From contig CACYHR010000020.1 of assembly GCA_902774265.1 (NCBI GenBank), forward strand, positions 1-64,000: a stretch of DNA of 64,000 nt, in the 5' to 3' direction. Source of the DNA: an uncultured Eubacteriales bacterium. Its GTDB lineage: Bacteria > Bacillota > Clostridia > Peptostreptococcales > Anaerovoracaceae. The notes below the pieces were generated by a model that did not search any database, was not told where the DNA came from, and saw nothing but the letters and a program-made list of their open reading frames with translations. A program made the position numbers and the translations under genes. Below, in pieces: positions 1 through 62,453 of this stretch (its first letter is position 1; every line of letters begins with the position of its first letter).

Positions 1-294
1 CTGAACAAGCGTTTTGATCAGAGTTTTGTTTCTTTTCTCCCGCTGCGGCATCAGCTATTATTCAGGTGCAGATAAATTGCGCGCGAGTATGGGCGGGATC
101 CGATTTGCAAGAGGGCGGGCGGAAACGAGCGCGCTTGGTGTGGTGGATGTATTGGGCCGGGTTCCAACCTCGTTATGTCATTCTTCTATTTCATTAGTCA
201 TTGCAATTCATCCCTCTACCTATAGAGGATAGGGGATTTCTTGCTAATTCATGTTAAATTATGTTTCTGATCCCTTGTGCAGGATCGATGTAAC
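1..294. other. Left edge, no supported gene
   Basis: This stretch lies downstream of the RNase P RNA and runs to the window edge. Short open frames exist on both strands, but none has a ribosome binding site or recognisable protein sequence. A minus-strand ATG near position 50 opens a frame that runs off the edge without a visible Shine-Dalgarno, so I do not call it. Confidence 0.5.
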
Positions 295-648
295 AAACGG
301 GCAGACCGTAAGCCGGGTTCTGTATTAGACGATCATCCATCTAGCACCGCAATTGCTTGCGGCATCAAGCGACTTACCTCGGGCGGGTACGGGCCGCACC
401 ACATATAGCCCTTCTCAGTCTTGCTCCGGATGGGGTTTACACGGCTGCTGTGTCTCCACAGCACCGGTGAGCTCTTACCTCACCATTTCAACCTTACCAC
501 GGCATTACCCGTTTCGGCGGAGTGTTTCTGTTGCACTTTCCCTACAGTTACCTGCGGCGGACGTTATCCGTCATCCCTGCCCTGCGGAGCCCGGACTTTC
601 CTCATGACCCAGTTGGGAGGGCCACGCGACCGTCTGGTCTACCCGTTT
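295..648 (-). ncRNA. rnpB: RNase P RNA (bacterial type A)
   Basis: This is the catalytic RNA of ribonuclease P, which removes 5' leaders from pre-tRNAs together with the RnpA protein. On the minus strand the ends form a 13-base helix P1: positions 648-636 pair with 307-295, with one G-U pair. Conserved core blocks are recognisable, including the GGAAAGTGCAACAGAAA-like segment near 530-550, the GAAGGGC segment near 408-416 and the 3' AGAACCCGGCTTAC-like segment near 308-325. The roughly 350-nt length fits type A. Ends are set by helix P1 and may differ by a few bases from the mature RNA. The open frames inside it are coincidental. Confidence 0.95.
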
Positions 649-21646: not shown

Positions 21647-24600
21647 TTATGCCATCATATCGAAAATGCTTACCTGCGCTGATTCCGGCAGTCCGGCAAA
21701 GAGGCCGTGTCTCTTCAGGTCGTCTATATTTGACGCCGAGAGCTTGGTTCTCGACCTTACATCGTCTATTGTGCTGAACGGTTTATTTTTGTAAGCTTCG
21801 ACCAGCGACTGCGCAGCCGTATCTCCTATCCCGTTTATCGCATTGAAAGGAAGCATTACCCTTCCGTCCACTACAGAGAACCTGCATGCTTCCGATACTC
21901 CGAGCACAGGTTCTGCGAATTCAAAGCCTCTCGACAGCATCTCGTACATGACTTCATATACTGTCATATGCTCTTTCTGCTTTGCGGTCGCCGTGTTTCC
22001 GAGCTTGTCGATCTCATCCATCTGCCTCTCAACCTCGCCTATTCCTCTGCCTATGGATTCAGCATCAAAGCTGTCCACCTTTGAAGTGAACCAGGCTGCA
22101 TAGAATGCTTCAGGATAGTTGACCTTGAACCAGGCCATACGTATCGACATCATGACATAGGCAGCTGCATGGGCGCGCGGGAACATGTATTTCAGCGTTT
22201 CACACGACCAGATATACCAGTCCGGAACGCCGTGATCCTTCATCATCTGCAGCTGTTCTTCACTCAGCACCCTGTTCTTACGCACTATCTCCATGATCTT
22301 GAACGCATCACTGTTAGGCAGTCCCTTGCTTATCAGGAAATTCATTATATCGTCACGGCAGGATATTACTTCATCGATCGTCGCCGTGCCCTTGCGCAGC
22401 AGCTCCTGCGCATTGTTCGTCCAGACGTCCGTTCCATGAGAGAATCCGGACATCTTTATCAGCGCGGAAACAGTTGTCGGATGTATATCGTCAAGCATGC
22501 CGCGTGTAAAGCTGGTACCGAATTCAGGTATGGCGTAAGTGCCGTGCGTGAAACGGTAATTCTCATTTTTGATATGAAGAGCGTCAAGCGATGTAAATAT
22601 GCTCAGCGTTTCCCTGTCATCGAGCGGGATGTTCATTGGATCCACGCCTGTCATTACCTGCAGATGCCTTATCAGCTGAGGCACATCATGGCCGAGTATA
22701 TCCAGCTTGAGCAGGTTCTCATCTATCTTGTGATAATCGAAATGAGTTGTGATAACATCGGTATCACGCTTGTTGGCAGGTTTTTGTATCGGGCAGAATT
22801 CATATATCTCGTGGTCGTCAGGTACGACAATGATGCCGCCCGGATGCTGGCCGGTCGTCCTCTTGACTCCGGTGCAGCCCTTTACGAGATAATCGATGTC
22901 ATATTTATTCGCCTTCATGTGGTTGTCTTCCACATAATGCTTCACATAGCCGTAAGCGGTTTTGTCCGCTATGGTCGCCACCGTCCCGGCCTTGAATACA
23001 TTCTTTTCGCCGAAGATTTCTCCAACATATCTGTGTGCGACAGGCTGATATTCGCCCGCAAAATTAAGGTCAATATCAGGCTCCTTGTCGCCCTTGAATC
23101 CGAGGAATGTAGCGAAAGGTATATTGAGTCCCTCTTTTTTGAGGCGGGCGCCGCACTTCGGGCAGGCCTTTTCCGGCATGTCATAGCCGGTATCATATTT
23201 TTCCTCGCCCTCATACCATTCAAAATGCTTGCATTCAGGGCATACGTAATGCGGTGCGAGCGGATTGACCTCTGTGATCCCCGCCATTGTCGCAGCAAAG
23301 GAAGACCCTACCGATCCTCTGGATCCGACCAGATAACCGTCGGAATTCGACTTGTGTACGAGCATCTGAGCCGCTATATACATGACAGCATAGCCGTTTC
23401 CTATAATAGAACTCAGCTCAGTCTCTAGCCTCTCCTCTATCTCTGCAGGAAGCGGCTTGCCGTATATAGACCACGCCTTTTCGTAGCAGCTGTTCCTGAG
23501 CTGATCCTCGGCGCCTGCGATCTTCGGAGGGAATTTACCTTTAGGAACAGGCAGCACATCGCCGACCATATCTGCGATCTTATTTGTATTCGTAATTACT
23601 ATCTCTTCAGCCCTGTCACCGAGATAAGAAAATTCCTCCATCATCTCATCGGTCGTGCGCAGGTAAAGAGAGTCGGAAGGCGTATCTCTGAACCCGATAC
23701 CGGCCATAATTATATTTCTGTAAATTGAAGCTTCTCTGGTCGGATAATGCGCATCTGTCGTGGCTACTGTCAGCTTGCCGAGCTTATCTCCAAGCTCGAT
23801 GATCCTGAGATTGTTCTTTATAAGATCTTCATTACTGCCGACTCTGCCTTCATCTACCATAAAACGGTTATTGCCGAGCGGCTGTATCTCGAGATAATCG
23901 TAAAATGATGCAATGCGTTCAAGCTCCTCGTCCGGAAGTCCTTTCTCAATAGCCTGATAAACCTCTCCTGCCTCACATGCGCTGCCTATAATCAGGCCCT
24001 CCCTGTGAGCCTGCAGCACAGATCTCGGCAGTCTCGGTCTCTTGTAGAAATAATCTATATGCGAGAGACTGACGAGTTTGTATATATTCTTCAGGCCCTC
24101 CTGATTCTTTGCGAGCAGGATTATGTGATAAGTCCTGTTCTTTTTGATATCTATATTGCCTTCTTCATCCACAGCATCCTCATCAGGATATAGATATCCC
24201 TCGACTCCGTAGATGATCTTGATTTCCTTGCCCTGCTTGGCCATCTTGCCGGCAGCCTTTGCAGCATCGGGGAATCCCTGAACTACGCCGTGGTCTGTGA
24301 TCGCAACAGCCGGCTGTCCCCATCTTGCGGCATTCTCAACGATCTCAGCGACCTCGTTGAAACCGTCATTGTCGCTCATCTTGCTGTGGCAGTGCAGCTC
24401 CACTCTGCGGCCGTTCGGATATGTATCCTGCTTGAGCTTTTTCTCGACTTTCTTGATATCCCTTGCCATCATCAGGTTCTCATGCTCATAGGTGTCATAT
24501 TCTATAGGACCCCTGGCCATTATCATATCGCCCTCGCTCAGATTCTCATCGATCTCCGCCATTTTATCAGCAGAAACAAAGGCCTTGAGGCAGTATGTTC

Positions 24601-25168
24601 TTGCCTTTTCAGCTATGAGAATAGTAACAAGCACCTTGCCGCTTCGTATAGGCATCGACTCAACTTTGAACACCTCGCCCTGTATAGCCGCCTTGTCCTT
24701 GATACCGACAAACTGATCCAGTTCGCTGTAGTCCTTAGGATCATCGCTGAAATCCCTGCCGAGTATTATCAGTTCTCCTATGGAATTTTTATGGACAGGT
24801 TCCTCCTTAGTCCTGCGCTTACCGCTCCATCCGCCGTTTCCGTTTCCACCGCCGCCGTTTCCGCCGCCGGAACCGCTGTATCCTCCGGACTGCACCGCTT
24901 CATTTGAATGATCGAGCACCTTAAGGCCGGAATACATGTAATTGAATCTGATCCTGCTGACAGAACCGAGCGCAGCCTTGATGCGCTCCTTCATCCTGTT
25001 CTCCAGATTTCGCGGCATAGAGAAATTGAGCCTGGTGTCTATTGTAAGCACCACGCCCGCTTTATCTACTGAGAGACCTGTGATCTCTATATCTATATCC
25101 TTTTCTTTTCTCCCTGTCGCCTCGTATATCTCTGCCGGCGACAGTATGCTGTTAGGAATCTTTATCAT
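21647..25168 (-). CDS. polC: DNA polymerase III PolC, apparently without exonuclease domain
   Basis: A 1173-residue PolC-type replicative polymerase. Order: N-terminal domain (1-90), a Gly/Asn-rich linker (about 93-117), OB domain (about 125-235, QGEVFKVESMPIRSGKVLVT), PHP domain (RRVELHCHSKMSDNDG... AITDHG... TTDAHYPT), then the polymerase core with zinc finger CPECKH/CPKCG, PDIDLNF and palm residues. PolC of low-GC Gram-positives is usually about 1430 residues because a DnaQ-like 3'-5' exonuclease (VFDVETTG) is inserted in the PHP domain after IIYGVEGYL. Here only about 20 residues (PDEDAVDEEGNIDIKKNRT) separate IIYGVEGYL from YHIILLAKNQEGLKNIYKLV, so the exonuclease is absent in frame. No frameshift is seen. 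Monocistronic. Confidence 0.93.
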   Translation of the reverse strand: MIKIPNSILSPAEIYEATGRKEKDIDIEITGLSVDKAGVVLTIDTRLNFSMPRNLENRMKERIKAALGSVSRIRFNYMYSGLKVLDHSNEAVQSGGYSGSGGGNGGGGNGNGGWSGKRRTKEEPVHKNSIGELIILGRDFSDDPKDYSELDQFVGIKDKAAIQGEVFKVESMPIRSGKVLVTILIAEKARTYCLKAFVSADKMAEIDENLSEGDMIMARGPIEYDTYEHENLMMARDIKKVEKKLKQDTYPNGRRVELHCHSKMSDNDGFNEVAEIVENAARWGQPAVAITDHGVVQGFPDAAKAAGKMAKQGKEIKIIYGVEGYLYPDEDAVDEEGNIDIKKNRTYHIILLAKNQEGLKNIYKLVSLSHIDYFYKRPRLPRSVLQAHREGLIIGSACEAGEVYQAIEKGLPDEELERIASFYDYLEIQPLGNNRFMVDEGRVGSNEDLIKNNLRIIELGDKLGKLTVATTDAHYPTREASIYRNIIMAGIGFRDTPSDSLYLRTTDEMMEEFSYLGDRAEEIVITNTNKIADMVGDVLPVPKGKFPPKIAGAEDQLRNSCYEKAWSIYGKPLPAEIEERLETELSSIIGNGYAVMYIAAQMLVHKSNSDGYLVGSRGSVGSSFAATMAGITEVNPLAPHYVCPECKHFEWYEGEEKYDTGYDMPEKACPKCGARLKKEGLNIPFATFLGFKGDKEPDIDLNFAGEYQPVAHRYVGEIFGEKNVFKAGTVATIADKTAYGYVKHYVEDNHMKANKYDIDYLVKGCTGVKRTTGQHPGGIIVVPDDHEIYEFCPIQKPANKRDTDVITTHFDYHKIDENLLKLDILGHDVPQLIRHLQVMTGVDPMNIPLDDRETLSIFTSLDALHIKNENYRFTHGTYAIPEFGTSFTRGMLDDIHPTTVSALIKMSGFSHGTDVWTNNAQELLRKGTATIDEVISCRDDIMNFLISKGLPNSDAFKIMEIVRKNRVLSEEQLQMMKDHGVPDWYIWSCETLKYMFPRAHAAAYVMMSIRMAWFKVNYPEAFYAAWFTSKVDSFDAESIGRGIGEVERQMDEIDKLGNTATAKQKEHMTVYEVMYEMLSRGFEFAEPVLGVSEACRFSVVDGRVMLPFNAINGIGDTAAQSLVEAYKNKPFSTIDDVRSRTKLSASNIDDLKRHGLFAGLPESAQVSIFDMMA

Positions 25169-25223
25169 ATAAAATCTATCTCAAAACTCTGTTTTTCTGA
25201 ATGGCATTTTAGCTGACATTAAT

Positions 25224-25318
25224 AACAGACACCGGATGTCCCCCGCCTCTTAGGCGGCGGGTTCCATTTTCGACCATCAGTGGTGGGTAACAATCCCCCA
25301 CTGATGCTCTCAGGAGCT
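25224..25318. mobile_element. Partial copy of MITE-like palindromic element
   Basis: About 95 bases nearly identical (one mismatch) to the reverse complement of the element at 62292-62440. It begins AACAGACACCGG, contains the hairpin CCCCCGCC...GGCGGCGGG and a second dyad CATCAGTGG...CCACTGATG, and stops before the second terminal repeat. It sits between ispG and polC and has no coding capacity. Confidence 0.75.
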
Positions 25319-25347: not shown

Positions 25348-26412
25348 TCATGCTTCAGACTCAACTATCTCGATCAGCCTGTCGATCAGTCTGTTTTCAG
25401 GCACTTTTTCGATTATCTCTCCGTGAGAGAATACCAGACCCTCGCCGCGGCCGCCGGCTATGCCGTAATCAGCCTCACGGCTCTCTCCCGGTCCGTTTAC
25501 CGCGCAGCCCATAACGGCTATCTTAAGAGGCCTTTTGCCGAGCTCTTTTCTGCGAGCAGCAATAGGCTCAAGCCTCTCCTCGGCCTCATTTGCGAGTCCG
25601 ATCAGGTCTATCTCCGTCCTTCCGCATGTCGGACAGGAAACGACATCTATGCTTTTTTCTCTCAGTCCGACGGTCTCAAGTATCCTGCGCGCAAGCAGGA
25701 CCTCTTTGACCGGATCGTCGGTTAGAGATACCCTCATTGTGTCGCCTATGCCTGCAAGCAGAAGCGATCCGATACCGATGGCGGATTTGAGTTCTCCGTT
25801 CCTCGGAGTCCCGGATTCAGTAATCCCTATATGTATAGGAACATCGACCATATCTTTGAGCATCATGTGCGCATCATAATTCATCTTTACATTCGATGAT
25901 TTGATAGATACCACCAGCTGATCATACCCAAGATCCTCGATCATACGGACCATATTCGCACCGCTCTCCGCAAGAGCTCCTGCAGTGACGCCGCCGTATT
26001 TGCGGATCAGATCCTTTTCAAGAGAGCCGGAATTAACGCCGACCCTGATAGGGATATTTCTTTCCTTTGCCTTCTCAACAACAGCCGTTACTCTGTCAAG
26101 ACTTCCTATATTACCCGGATTGATCCGGATCTTGTCTGCGCCGTTCTCGATAGAGGCTATGGCAAGCTTATAGTCAAAATGTATATCCGCAACCAGCGGC
26201 ACCCTGACCAGTTTCTTCGCTCTGCCGAGCGACTCGGCAGCCTGCATATCCGGTACCGCGCATCTCACGATCTCGCATCCGGCATCAGCCAGCTCATTGA
26301 TCTGCCTTACAAGAGCATCAGTATCCCTCGTGTCAACATTAGTCATCGATTGTATAGAAACGGGAGCGCCGCCTCCGATGGCGACATCCCCGCAGTGAAC
26401 CTGTACAGACAT
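25348..26412 (-). CDS. ispG: 4-hydroxy-3-methylbut-2-enyl diphosphate synthase (flavodoxin)
   Basis: A 354-residue IspG of the MEP isoprenoid pathway, converting MEcPP to HMBPP with a [4Fe-4S] cluster. The TIM-barrel part holds SIQSMTNVDTRD, ADIHFDYKLA and RINPGNIG; cluster ligands are the two Cys of CPTCGRTE and the Cys of VMGCAVNGPGE, and the terminal Glu follows. GGAG is well placed before the ATG. dxr and rseP lie just upstream in the same orientation, but a 589-base repeat island now separates ispG from rseP. Confidence 0.96.
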   Translation of the reverse strand: MSVQVHCGDVAIGGGAPVSIQSMTNVDTRDTDALVRQINELADAGCEIVRCAVPDMQAAESLGRAKKLVRVPLVADIHFDYKLAIASIENGADKIRINPGNIGSLDRVTAVVEKAKERNIPIRVGVNSGSLEKDLIRKYGGVTAGALAESGANMVRMIEDLGYDQLVVSIKSSNVKMNYDAHMMLKDMVDVPIHIGITESGTPRNGELKSAIGIGSLLLAGIGDTMRVSLTDDPVKEVLLARRILETVGLREKSIDVVSCPTCGRTEIDLIGLANEAEERLEPIAARRKELGKRPLKIAVMGCAVNGPGESREADYGIAGGRGEGLVFSHGEIIEKVPENRLIDRLIEIVESEA

Positions 26413-26455
26413 GTTATTCTCCTTTACAATTATAATTTAGTGAACAGCCACTTTA

Positions 26456-26959
26456 GACTTCCGTCCCGGAGGCGTGTTTTCGACATTATGGACGGAAGTT
26501 TTCTATCCGGACTTTCTGAATTCATACACCACTTTTCACAAATATGGTGTATGGTCAGCGTAAATCGGCAATTTTTTACACCCAAAGGTCGTCAAATGGC
26601 ACTGTATATCCTCAAGATGAGGCAATCGGGTGTAATAATCTGCATTCTTTCAGACTTCATACACCGTTTTTGGCAAATCGGGTGTATGGATACCGCCCAA
26701 AAGTAATTTTTTACACCCTCCGGTGTAATATTCCGCGTTTTTTCTGAATTCATACACCGCTTTTAGCAAATCGGGTGTATGGATAGCGCCCAACAGTAAT
26801 TTTTTACACCCTCGGGTGTATTATTTTGCGTTCTTTCTGAATTCATACACCGCTTTTCACAAATATGGTGTATGGTCAGCGTAAGTCGGCAATATTTTAC
26901 ACCCGCCTGCAGACTTCCGTCCCGGGGGCGTGTTTTCGGCACTATGGACGGAAGTTTTC
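26456..26959. repeat. Palindromic repeat island (CATACACC hairpin array)
   Basis: A 504-base non-coding island between rseP and ispG. It is bracketed by two direct copies of a 48-49 base element (26456-26503 and 26911-26959), each with internal inverted arms ACTTCCGTCC/GGACGGAAGT. Between them are four hairpins with CATACACC/GGTGTATG arms at 26523-26553, 26658-26688, 26751-26781 and 26844-26874, spaced 135, 93 and 93 bases. Each is followed by a second dyad of the type TTTTTTACACCC...GGGTGTA. A related single unit lies at 48615-48835. The small open frames here are products of the repeats. Function unknown. Confidence 0.9.
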
Positions 26960-27001
26960 GCACAGTGTACACTTGAACTGCTGCGCAGCCGATGTAAATT
27001 T

Positions 27002-28009
27002 TTACTTTATCAAATTGCTGATATCGTTGAATGTGATGAATACTACGAATGCGATCAGCAGTCCCATTCCGACGATTGTGGCTTTTAATTCCATATCGTC
27101 AGTTATGCGTCCGCCGCTGAGGACCTTGAGTATGATGAAGAATATTTTGCCTCCGTCAAGTCCCGGTATAGGGAGTATGTTAAAGAAGGCAAGGTTGAGA
27201 CTGACCATCGCGAGCAGCAGCAGATATGATGTGAATCCGTATGACTTCGTGGTATTCACAACCTTGACCAGACCCACCGGACCTGCTACATCATCCTTAT
27301 CGAAACCTCCTGTGAACATCTGCTTAAAGGCTCCGAGCATCAGCTTATTCAGATTCCATGTCGACATTATCCCTGCCGGGACGCAGTATATAGGATTTCG
27401 CGTGACCTGCGGCGTTATGCCTATCATATAGCGATTCTCTTCGGTATTCATCTCAGGCGTAAGGAAAACGGTATTGTGCTTCGAATCTCTGACATATTCG
27501 ATCTCCATCTTATCACCCTTGTGATATGAACTGATGCAGTCCGTTATGTCAGACCAGCTCTTTATCGCCGTGCCGTCGATCGCGGTTATCCTGTCACCTG
27601 CTTCAAGACCTGCTTCGGCCGCCGGTGAATCCTTTACCACAGAAGCGAGCTTAGTCGAAGCCATTCCGCTTACTTCGAGAACAAGCGTCATCATTAAGGT
27701 TGCTATGATAATGTTCATAGTCACGCCTGCAAGCAGTATTGCAGTCTTCTGGAGATTGCTTTTGCTGCTGTAGGAACGTGGATCATTGCTCGCCTCTTCT
27801 TCGCCCTCCATCGCGCAGTAACCGCCGAGAGGCAGCAGACGCACGGAATACTGTGTCTCACCCCTCTGTTTCTTGAAAAGCAACGGACCCATTCCGACTG
27901 AAAATTCATTTACCTTTACATCACATAACTTCGCCACAATAAGATGACCCCATTCATGTGGGATCACCATTATCAGCAGCATCAGAATATATAAAACAGC
28001 TGTAACCAA
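27002..28009 (-). CDS. rseP: Site-2 intramembrane metalloprotease RseP/RasP-like
   Basis: A 335-residue S2P-family protease. The zinc motif HEWGH (18-22) is in the first membrane segment; a PDZ domain (about 115-190, AGLEAGDRITAIDGTAI) follows; the C-terminal GLDGG motif lies in the third membrane segment (about 278-285, LPIPGLDGGKIFF). It cleaves membrane-bound regulators and signal-peptide remnants. The start is a TTG (28009) placed six bases after GGGAGGT; no ATG alternative exists upstream with a better site. Located directly after dxr (36-base gap), the classic dxr-rseP pair. Confidence 0.94.
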   Translation of the reverse strand: MVTAVLYILMLLIMVIPHEWGHLIVAKLCDVKVNEFSVGMGPLLFKKQRGETQYSVRLLPLGGYCAMEGEEEASNDPRSYSSKSNLQKTAILLAGVTMNIIIATLMMTLVLEVSGMASTKLASVVKDSPAAEAGLEAGDRITAIDGTAIKSWSDITDCISSYHKGDKMEIEYVRDSKHNTVFLTPEMNTEENRYMIGITPQVTRNPIYCVPAGIMSTWNLNKLMLGAFKQMFTGGFDKDDVAGPVGLVKVVNTTKSYGFTSYLLLLAMVSLNLAFFNILPIPGLDGGKIFFIILKVLSGGRITDDMELKATIVGMGLLIAFVVFITFNDISNLIK

Positions 28010-28045
28010 TATTTACCTCCCGCGCAGGCATCCCGCGCCTGCCGA

Positions 28046-29272
28046 TTACTTAATTAATTCCCTGACTTTGATCCTCGTTTCGCGGTCGATCGCAAGTATC
28101 TCCTCGACGCTCGAAGGTGTGCCGAAGTCAGCCTCGTCCATGACACCTTCTATTGTATCAGGGATATCGGTAAATCCGATCTTACCTGCGAGGAACATTG
28201 CCACAAGTTCCTCGTTTGCGCCGTTCATAACTACCGGCGCCGCACCGCCTTCCTCAAGCGCTCTGTATGCCATGTCGATGCATCTGAAGACTTTGCGGTC
28301 CGCCTTTTCAAAATGAAGGTCAGAGCCTGTTGTAAAGAAATCAAGAGCTCCGTCAGTGCCTCTTCCTCTGTCTCCTTCGAAATCCGGCAGCAGATCCAGT
28401 CTGTCCGGATAGTTCAGCGCCAGTCCGATAGGAATCTTCATATCCGGAAGTCCCATCTGTGCGATGACCGATCCATCCATGAATTCGACCATCGAATGAA
28501 CGATACTTTCCGGATGAACATGGATATCTATCCTGTCAGCAGGGACATCGAAAAGCCATCTGGCTTCTATGACTTCGAGCCCCTTGTTCATCATTGTTGC
28601 GGAATCGATGGTGATCTTGCTTCCCATACTCCACTTCGGATGATTCAGCGCCTGCTGTATCGTCACATCTCTGAGTGATTCCGCACTTCTGCCGCGGAAA
28701 GGTCCGCCGGATGCGGTAAGCAGTATACGCCTTACCGGTCTTTGCACGGCATCGCTCTTATCCTGAGCTCTGTACGCCCTGCCGCATGCGCTGCCTCCGT
28801 TGCCCTCGAGACATTGGAAGATCGCACTGTGCTCGCTGTCAACAGGCAGTAGTCTCACGCCTTTTTCGCGGCACAGATCTGTAACAAGCGCACCGCCGGC
28901 TACCAGAGTCTCCTTATTCGCCAGAGCTATATCCCTGCCGAGACCTATAGCCGTATAAGTCGGAGCCAGGCCGCTTATGCCCATCAGTGAATTGAGCACT
29001 ATATCGCAGTCCATCTTTGCGATTTCTATAAGACCGGCTTCGCCGTAGAATACTTCTATCTCGGGAAATTCAGTATGTACCCTGATCGCATCCTCCGGAC
29101 TGCCGACCGAGACCGCTTCAGGTCTGAACTCCATTATCTGCTCAATCAGACTGTCGATCCTGCTCCTGCAGGTCAGTCCGACAGCCCTGAACTTATCCTT
29201 GTTATTCCTTATTATGTCGAGCGCCTGGGTCCCTATGGAACCGGTGCTCCCCATTATCAGTACTTTTTTCAT
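28046..29272 (-). CDS. dxr: 1-deoxy-D-xylulose-5-phosphate reductoisomerase
   Basis: A 408-residue Dxr (IspC), second step of the MEP pathway, NADPH-dependent. The nucleotide loop is LIMGSTGSIGTQAL (5-18); ALANKETLVAGG, LPVDSEHSAIFQCL (metal and substrate ligands), LTASGGPFRG, HPKWSMGSKITIDSATMMNKGLE and VHPESIVHSMVEF are all present. There is an extra approximately 20-residue loop after EHSAIFQCL (GNGGSACGRAYRAQDKSDAV) that is longer than in most homologues. In operon with uppS-cdsA upstream and rseP downstream. Confidence 0.96.
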   Translation of the reverse strand: MKKVLIMGSTGSIGTQALDIIRNNKDKFRAVGLTCRSRIDSLIEQIMEFRPEAVSVGSPEDAIRVHTEFPEIEVFYGEAGLIEIAKMDCDIVLNSLMGISGLAPTYTAIGLGRDIALANKETLVAGGALVTDLCREKGVRLLPVDSEHSAIFQCLEGNGGSACGRAYRAQDKSDAVQRPVRRILLTASGGPFRGRSAESLRDVTIQQALNHPKWSMGSKITIDSATMMNKGLEVIEARWLFDVPADRIDIHVHPESIVHSMVEFMDGSVIAQMGLPDMKIPIGLALNYPDRLDLLPDFEGDRGRGTDGALDFFTTGSDLHFEKADRKVFRCIDMAYRALEEGGAAPVVMNGANEELVAMFLAGKIGFTDIPDTIEGVMDEADFGTPSSVEEILAIDRETRIKVRELIK

Positions 29273-29344
29273 TTTTAATCTTAAATTATTTACCGATCAG
29301 TCCTGATCAAGTTTATATGGTTATGTCTGTTTACTGAATTGCAA

Positions 29345-30196
29345 CTATATAACCAGTAATCCGGTCAGAATGCATATCGCGTAATAAACCACAGGTGCTG
29401 TGAATATCACGCTGTCGAATCTGTCCATTATACCGCCGTGCCCCGGGATCAGATTGCCGTAATCCTTGATTCCCATCTTGCGTTTGAACGCCGATGCAGT
29501 CAGATCGCCGGCCATGCCGGCAGCACCGCCTACAAGACCCAGTACCAGGCAGACAAGAGCCATCTCTCTCATGAATATGAAACCGAACAGCCATGCGAAT
29601 AGAGAACTTCCAATGAGTCCGCCTACAGCTCCTTCGACAGTCTTCTTAGGGCTGAGGTTCGGCGCCATCTTGTGTTTGCCGAGAAAGTATCCGGTAAAAT
29701 ATGCGCAGATATCCGATCCGAATGCGGCAATCACAACGATCCAGATAAACAGTTTGTAAGGCGTCATATCTATCAGAACCATATGATATGTGAAAAAAGG
29801 AATATATACAAGCGCAGTCACTGTAGCTGCGGCGTCATATGCTCCTCTTTCGTTTATCTTCCAGCCGTAGATAAGGCTGACGGCAACTGCGACAAACATC
29901 CAGACAGACATAAACACCATATTTCTGCAGAATACAGGGACTGCAGAATCAGCCGCAGCAAGAGGCGAAAAGCCTTTGATACCTCCCGAAAGGAAATAGC
30001 CTGCGAAAAGAAGCACAGTCATCACATAGCATACCGGCAGAGATGGTTTAACATCGAGGCTGGTCCATCCTTTGCAGAATTCGTGAACTCCCATCAGAGC
30101 GATAATAAGCGCAGCAGCCCATAACACGATACCGCCGAAGTACAGCACCAGCAGAAGTGGCACCATAATAAGGCCGGAAATAATTCTAGTCTTCAT
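29345..30196 (-). CDS. cdsA: Phosphatidate cytidylyltransferase
   Basis: A 283-residue integral membrane enzyme making CDP-diacylglycerol from phosphatidate and CTP. About eight membrane segments are predicted. The family signature is clear: LSPKKTVEGAVGGLIGSS (about 180-197) followed by GDLTASAFKRKMGIKDYGNLIPGHGGIMDRFDS near the C-terminus, with the catalytic Asp residues. 17 bases after uppS, as in most bacteria. Confidence 0.96.
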   Translation of the reverse strand: MKTRIISGLIMVPLLLVLYFGGIVLWAAALIIALMGVHEFCKGWTSLDVKPSLPVCYVMTVLLFAGYFLSGGIKGFSPLAAADSAVPVFCRNMVFMSVWMFVAVAVSLIYGWKINERGAYDAAATVTALVYIPFFTYHMVLIDMTPYKLFIWIVVIAAFGSDICAYFTGYFLGKHKMAPNLSPKKTVEGAVGGLIGSSLFAWLFGFIFMREMALVCLVLGLVGGAAGMAGDLTASAFKRKMGIKDYGNLIPGHGGIMDRFDSVIFTAPVVYYAICILTGLLVI

Positions 30197-48367: not shown

Positions 48368-48441
48368 TGTTCTTTACCTCCAATTATTCACCGGGGAAGC
48401 CCGCATTCACTTGATATTAACCTGATTATAGTTTTATAATG

Positions 48442-48547
48442 AAAAAATCGCGGACACACAAGTATCCGCGAATCAGAATCATTCTGAGATATATAGCCCT
48501 GCCAACGCAAGTCTGCAAGGCGAGAAGCGGATAACTTCTGCTTTAAC
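48442..48547 (-). promoter_or_regulatory. L20-type leader of infC-rpmI-rplT
   Basis: Between promoter and infC the minus strand carries the L20-leader pattern: GCAGAAGTTATCCGCTTCTCGCCTTGCAG blocks (48540-48512 region), then a strong terminator TCGCGGATAC/GTGTCCGCGA followed by six T (48471-48442). L20 binding should favour termination. Identification rests on the familiar CGCTTCTC-CCTTGC segment and the terminator before infC. Confidence 0.85.
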
Positions 48548-48554
48548 CTCGGAT

Positions 48555-48614: not shown

Positions 48615-48835
48615 CAATCCGGTGTACAATTCAGTGAGCATCAGGCTCCCTGGCCCAATTTCCTCATAATGAGCCCATCGGGTGTATTATTTTGAGTTCC
48701 TGCCGATCTCATACACCCTTTTTTCACAAATCGGGTGTATGAGTTGTGCTTACCGGTATATTTTTACACCCGAAGGCCGCTATACAGCACTATTTAGCCT
48801 CATAATGAGTCTATCGGGTGTATTAACTTAAGAAA
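48615..48835. repeat. Second palindromic repeat island
   Basis: Non-coding region between the infC promoter and maf with the same building blocks as 26456-26959: a CATACACCC/GGGTGTATG hairpin (48710-48718 with 48733-48741), a TTTTTACACCC...GGGTGTATT dyad (about 48760-48825) and two CCTCATAATGAG palindromes. One unit instead of four, and without the outer ACTTCCGTCC elements. Confidence 0.85.
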
Positions 48836-48913
48836 CTGCTCGAATATTACACCGCAGAATGTAAAAAAGCTACTGTACATCAGATGGCGGGCAAACAATC
48901 AGGAGAAAAGATA

Positions 48914-62291: not shown

Positions 62292-62440
62292 AACAGACAC
62301 CGGGAGCTTCAGCTCCTGAGAGCATCAGTGGACACCGGGAGCTTCAGCTCCTGAGAGCATCAGTGGGGGATTGTTACCCACCATTGATGGTCGAAAATGG
62401 AACCCGCCGCCTAAGAGGCGGGGGACATCCGGTGTCTGTT
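62292..62440. mobile_element. MITE-like element with perfect 12-bp terminal inverted repeats
   Basis: 149 bases bounded by AACAGACACCGG and CCGGTGTCTGTT (perfect 12-base inverted repeats). Inside are two tandem copies of a 35-base unit GACACCGGGAGCTTCAGCTC... and the same hairpins as the copy at 25224-25318 (CCCGCCGCC...GGCGGGGG). No coding capacity, hence non-autonomous; no related transposase is in this window. Flanking bases 62190-62291 hold further GGAGC/GCTCC palindromes, and no gene. Confidence 0.75.
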
Positions 62441-62453
62441 ATAACAACGGATC

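Follow-up and report, generated by a model that had tools for sequence, protein, structure and literature searches.

A PolC without its inserted exonuclease in a Mogibacterium-like gut bacterium: the PHP metal site as a candidate proofreader

How does a PolC-type DNA polymerase III alpha subunit remove its errors when the proofreading exonuclease usually inserted into its PHP domain is missing? This question is raised by the polC gene at positions 21647..25168 on the minus strand of contig CACYHR010000020.1 (assembly GCA_902774265.1, an uncultured Eubacteriales bacterium of the family Anaerovoracaceae), the first 64,000 nucleotides of which were analysed and are called the window here. Our best explanation, to which as a whole we assign a probability of roughly 0.6, is that the gene encodes the PolC native to a Mogibacterium-like gut bacterium, that its DnaQ-type exonuclease has been lost, and that proofreading by this PolC, if there is any, would come from its own PHP site.

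PolCs of this architecture are already known, because Timinskas et al. (PMC3919608; the literature is cited here from passages of the papers concerned) report that 6% of PolCs lack the exonuclease, namely in Clostridia and Negativicutes, with one additional copy in Thermotogae. The authors call its absence surprising and ask whether such a PolC is secondary. In addition, Clostridia are described as mostly having three active proofreaders in PMC12926913, which is also the source of the ligand pattern HHDHEH[C/H]DH that we used to judge the PHP metal site.

The window PolC and its missing insert

The gene is a single uninterrupted frame for an intact PolC of 1173 residues, which scores 1392.7 bits with the NCBIfam model PRK00448 (cut-off 873) and 1301.8 bits with TIGR01405 (cut-off 1043.45); Pfam matches its PHP, pol3_alpha, fingers and HhH regions. 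The two parts of the PHP domain comprise residues 255-323 (24200..24406, this and all following coordinates within the gene being on the minus strand), with the ligands H259, H261, D268, H293 and E323, and residues 348 to about 540 (23549..24127, the end boundary being approximate), with the ligands H348, C398, D472 and H474. At the site of the missing exonuclease, a linker of only 24 residues (324-347; 24128..24199) separates E323 from H348, while homologous PolCs with a complete DEDDh exonuclease have 197-237 residues between the same two ligands and mostly contain an FDxETTG-like motif. The window PolC does not have the usual DnaQ-type insertion in PHP, and its loop resembles in length that of the DnaE1 encoded by the same genome, where it measures 20 residues. 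An earlier note on this DNA, made from its letters alone, had described PHP halves joined by about 20 residues in an unbroken frame, and both observations hold.

The same note saw the motif VFDVETTG nowhere in the protein, and our searches of the rest of the chain revealed no exonuclease. Pfam lists no RNase_T match in the protein at E values up to 1, and the best 50 rows of a Foldseek search of its AlphaFold model against the PDB contain no free DnaQ-type exonuclease; the matches include 4gx8 and 4gx9, chimeras of alpha and epsilon, whose sequence similarity lies in the PHP region (residues 253-516 of the query). A divergent exonuclease hidden elsewhere in the chain was therefore rejected on the basis of Pfam, the model and Foldseek.

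The linker is not peculiar to this assembly. A PolC that is 93% identical, from a goat-ileum metagenome-assembled genome (MAG), has the same 24-residue linker, which is also the length in most family members, the others having 16-39 residues. The identical junction is present in records of Emergencia timonensis, Aminicella lysinilytica, Baileyella intestinalis, Mogibacterium kristiansenii and Clostridium aminobutyricum. Among the best 80 named records, which include Mogibacterium-like MAGs, Candidatus Crickella, Baileyella, M. kristiansenii, Emergencia, Aminicella, Eubacterium pyruvativorans and C. aminobutyricum, no linker is longer than 39 residues, these records having been retrieved by their likeness to an exonuclease-less query. 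The genome itself (3.26 Mb, 110 contigs, 90.8% complete) yielded no second PolC match, and the sole other hit was DnaE1 on another contig.

The AlphaFold model (mean predicted local distance difference test (pLDDT) 80.1, predicted template modelling (TM) score 0.59) shows, in this order, a small N-terminal domain, a low-confidence Gly-rich linker, OB, PHP, polymerase and HhH, and therefore the PolC-type layout with OB located N-terminal to PHP. The best Foldseek match is the Geobacillus kaustophilus PolC structure 3F2B, with a TM score of 0.89 by target length. The OB domain (residues ~130-245; 24434..24781) is placed by strands of the model and by the alignment to 3F2B, which begins at residue 149; its Pfam hit is weak (E 0.11). 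The polymerase Asp pair D698/D700 in the motif PDIDLNF (23069..23077) is invariant in family alignment A1, and the C-terminal QVSIF (21662..21676), whose Q1165 is invariant in the family alignment, is a candidate beta-clamp motif, judged by eye.

Two N-terminal KH-like domains are expected of a PolC; the model displays one small alpha/beta domain at residues 1-80 (24929..25168), which has no Pfam hit, followed by the Gly-rich linker (residues 81-125; 24794..24928; pLDDT below 50 over residues 81-120). PF11490, the second N-terminal domain, was not detected in the window PolC and stays below its cut-off in two relatives (L106 and L040). This domain seems to be lost from residues 1-125 throughout the genus, and judging by N-terminal length the loss seems to extend to other branches of the family (L088, L089, L132 and L037).

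Spread of the loss and state of the PHP site

A PolC match without the insert was found in 46 of the 47 genomes of the genus, the window's own included; the remaining one, G019, is 59% complete and has no PolC-scale match. Among 13 other genomes of the family, eight have an exonuclease-less PolC, one (G054) has the exonuclease, and four lack a PolC-scale match. A sample of 136 other genomes of the class contains 19 exonuclease-less PolCs from seven families, all 19 read directly, and seven genomes without a PolC-scale match; most of the rest are insert-bearing by frame length, and part of them were read. In the phylum sample (138 other genomes), 61 PolCs were classified as exonuclease-less and 41 as exonuclease-bearing by match extent and frame length, with 40 and 23 of them, respectively, also read by residue, all in agreement; 3 are fragments that were left unclassified (G293, G267 and G357), and 33 genomes have no PolC-scale match. 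Thus, the exonuclease-less form accounts for the majority (61/102) of classifiable PolCs, 63 of which were read residue by residue and 39 by match extent and frame length, and the textbook layout of PolC is the minority in the phylum sample drawn here.

Deletion of the insert is one of several ways in which the exonuclease appears to have been disabled. Three PolCs, L190 and L195 from family f44 and L199 from family f47, retain a diverged insert from which the DEDDh residues are gone, with an intact PHP site, and a further one, L150, has a linker of 57 residues rich in Ala, Ser and Lys. Judged by their sequences, these are other routes to the same end. Two further f44 genomes, G130 and G200, showed no PolC-scale match.

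A tree of 113 PolCs, calculated without the insert columns, requires at least seven changes of state, six of them forced by starred branches, and a tree of 172 PolCs requires 16, with seven forced in this way; both result from quick searches, have poorly supported deep branches and are unrooted, without an outgroup. We prefer loss in the ancestry of the family over an exonuclease that was never gained, as the exonuclease-bearing PolCs have the insertion site and the DEDHD residues in common. The data do not reject one loss for the whole family (approximately unbiased test, p = 0.22), although the best tree places the exonuclease-bearing G054 inside it. As regards a possible regain of the domain by transfer, the exonuclease of G054 has an order relative (L044) as its nearest row by path, followed by a class relative, and falls in no starred set.

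The nine PHP ligands of the window PolC read HHDHEHCDH, in line with the published pattern, and are invariant across the 37-row family alignment. They are likewise complete in all 83 insert-free PolCs of the final 172-row alignment and in the three PolCs with a dead insert. This alignment combines 112 of the 182 rows of a first set, thinned of near relatives, with 60 new rows; identical proteins were merged, L052 was omitted as a near-copy of L051, and L213 and the fragment L049 were kept outside. Among insert-free rows outside the alignment, the nine ligands are present in all but L213 and two fragments, L049 and L126, which miss part of PHP. Damage to PHP was found in seven PolCs of the final alignment, all of them among the 86 whose exonuclease retains DEDHD. 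The PHP site of DnaE1 was intact in all 30 genomes tested.

We also compared the change in PHP with that in the polymerase core, using 170 of the 172 rows. The ratio amounts to 1.34 in PolCs without a working exonuclease, 1.50 in those with an exonuclease and an intact PHP, and 2.53 in those with a broken PHP. PHP in exonuclease-less PolCs is therefore under constraint and not relaxed, with no increase in constraint shown.

Which site might proofread

Deletion of the DnaQ-type 3'-5' exonuclease would have left a short, DnaE-like loop in PHP, and by analogy with the PHP exonuclease of Mycobacterium tuberculosis DnaE1 we infer that the PHP metal sites of PolC and of the partner DnaE1 would remove misincorporated nucleotides. 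If PHP does excise errors, the DnaQ-type domain could have gone repeatedly while PHP stayed intact. Proofreading by PHP would thus fit the anatomy of these proteins, although it rests on inference. The earlier note had concluded that either another protein must supply the proofreading or it is weak; the loss stands, and what that conclusion overlooked is the PHP site with nine intact ligands in the same chain.

Several points weigh against this reading. An intact PHP site is also present in 79 of the 86 PolCs with an intact exonuclease, and its integrity in exonuclease-less PolCs is weak evidence, because few would be expected to be broken in any event and the rows share ancestry. On terminal branches, the PHP rates of exonuclease-less and exonuclease-bearing PolCs do not differ significantly (p = 0.46). 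One insert-free protein, the 728-residue L213, combines a broken PHP with an altered polymerase Asp; being a second copy in its genome, G227, it is taken for a degenerate paralogue. The window's own genome encodes two RNase_T-family proteins, L001 and L002. Finally, to our knowledge an active PHP nuclease has not been measured in any PolC, nor has proofreading by PHP been demonstrated for one. As regards G227, this genome also carries a full-length PolC (L181).

The most serious alternative, which we nevertheless consider unlikely, is a demotion of PolC: DnaE1, whose PHP is intact, would make the bulk of the DNA accurately, and PolC would serve short or special stretches in which a lack of proofreading is tolerated. 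The idea was raised in PMC3919608, and some relatives appear to drop PolC altogether, a DnaE-scale but no PolC-scale match being found in 4 of the 13 family genomes outside the genus and in the 33 of 138 in the phylum sample; however, the four in the family are merely 72-84% complete. Moreover, on terminal branches the change in PolC relative to DnaE1 has a median of 0.79 (16 tips) in genomes without a working exonuclease and of 0.55 (13 tips) in the others (p = 0.027, in a test that treats tips as independent), and this faster change favours a lesser importance of PolC in these genomes. However, the window genome has a ratio of 0.59, and the exonuclease-bearing G054, G063 and G070 reach 0.99, 1.23 and 1.05, respectively. 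The invariant polymerase Asp residues and the unrelaxed PHP likewise argue against demotion. One genome with an exonuclease-less PolC, G162, was excluded from this rate test; its DnaE1 (L243) is found in two neighbouring frames of 700 and 485 residues, of which the first piece alone was read, and represents a frameshift, a split gene or an assembly error.

Proofreading in trans by a stand-alone DEDDh exonuclease bound to PolC or DnaE1 is considerably less probable. The obvious candidate is L001, a DEDDh protein of 176 residues with the motifs DVET and HNAAFD, which scores 75.1 bits with Pfam RNase_T (cut-off 24) and is nearest to the NCBIfam model for DNA polymerase III epsilon; however, it remains below the cut-offs of all NCBIfam models listed, and its only close homologue in the genus is in G016 (71% over 106 residues), with weak matches of 23-31% in nine more genomes. 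L002 is nearest to KapD, likewise below cut-off. Thus, the earlier note's suggestion to search for a stand-alone DnaQ led to two RNase_T proteins in the window's genome and to a different answer in general: a scan of 35 other genomes of the genus found no RNase_T match in 22, nine of which are at least 90% complete. In exonuclease-less genomes, such a match is missing from 18 of 25 (nine of the family and 16 of other families of the class), leaving seven with one, and from 11 of 40 in the phylum sample; pooled, 29 of 65 near-complete exonuclease-less genomes lack it (G000, G005 and G023 are counted in both the genus and the family/class scans). Although some RNase_T match does occur in 29 of the 40 exonuclease-less phylum-sample genomes, 13 of 20 exonuclease-bearing ones also have an RNase_T protein outside PolC, so that no clear enrichment accompanies the loss.

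The excision of the PolC exonuclease to a stand-alone gene was rejected, given the sporadic occurrence of L001 and its scores below the NCBIfam cut-offs. As for other repair genes, the window's genome has two genes of the MutS family and no match to PF01612, the Pol I type 3'-5' exonuclease, a control that Bacillus subtilis fails as well.

That an assembly error or a pseudogene accounts for the missing exonuclease, as a draft of 110 contigs might suggest, can be dismissed, because independent genomes, as well as records of five named species, have the identical junction of 24 residues.

Beyond the window, we tentatively propose a broader scheme, in which we place less confidence than in the explanation of this locus: PolC would possess two interchangeable proofreaders, PHP and the inserted DnaQ, of which a working PolC may lose either and never both, and in the Mogibacterium-like family as well as in many lineages of the phylum the replisome would proofread by PHP sites alone, in many genomes without any DnaQ-type enzyme.

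The locus, known systems and implications

Upstream of polC lies ispG (GcpE; 25348..26412, minus strand), which is present in 74 of 80 named loci, the available contigs of the other six ending near polC. It is followed by rseP (M50 peptidase; 71/80), dxr (53/80) and cdsA at 27002..30196 (minus strand), all assigned by Pfam. Since ispG, rseP and dxr stand beside polC in most named loci, the locus is native.

A strongly folding element of 97 nucleotides is located just upstream of polC (25222-25318, minus strand) and also precedes dnaE1 in the same orientation (L238, 1295-1391); it further occurs at 62346-62442 (plus strand) of the window. A shared leader of polC and dnaE1 was rejected, as the element is a dispersed repeat: 483 kb of the genome contain ten pieces of 93-97 nucleotides, nine of them 98-100% identical (rounded), and five shorter ones. 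Possibly, and this is a guess, it is the end of an IS200/IS605-like element. The gap between rseP and ispG (26413-27001) harbors four copies of a near-tandem 93-nucleotide repeat with palindromes (26491-26904), flanked on either side by a direct repeat of 49 nucleotides; a related stretch is found at 48658-48868, and in the relative L056 about 19 bp separate rseP and ispG, as judged by match edges. Rfam further identifies a class A RNase P RNA (294-645, minus strand) and a ribosomal protein L20 leader (48436-48549, minus strand).

The earlier note allowed for the loss being a described feature of the lineage, and at the level of the class this is largely so, given the Clostridia and Negativicutes of PMC3919608; the passages of that paper name no genus of the window's family, which its supplements may list. 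As in the variants described there, the exonuclease is missing from PHP, PolC is paired with DnaE1 in the genome, and the nine PHP positions strongly conserved in PolC are retained. Unlike in that report with its 6%, we found 61 of 102, repeated change and dead inserts, and surveyed RNase_T genome-wide. The gap between the two proportions may reflect sampling and the share of Bacilli included. In our literature searches we did not find the extent of the loss, the absence of RNase_T from many such genomes or the nearly mutually exclusive damage to PHP and DnaQ in print, the supplements being unreadable.

The exonuclease-free fold itself has a counterpart in 3F2B, from which the exonuclease was removed for crystallisation (PMC12592400). 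That deletion is man-made, and Geobacillus PolC has one altered PHP ligand and no exonuclease activity at the PHP site (PMC5636811); in our alignment it has Asn opposite Asp at position 472 of the window PolC. The window PolC lacks the exonuclease by nature and has all nine ligands. It shares nine ligands and a short loop with M. tuberculosis DnaE1 (PMC5636811), in which this loop lines the PHP nuclease site and where the DnaQ-like exonuclease of Geobacillus and other PolCs is inserted. DnaE1 has a PHP exonuclease, whereas the window protein is a PolC in which such activity is predicted.

These findings point to natural two-polymerase systems in which PHP is the sole recognised proofreader that is left, and its role in PolC is therefore directly testable, for instance in Emergencia timonensis, Aminicella lysinilytica and Clostridium aminobutyricum. 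That most PolCs classified in the phylum sample lack the exonuclease is also relevant to how the evolution of PolC is modelled and to PolC as a target for drugs.

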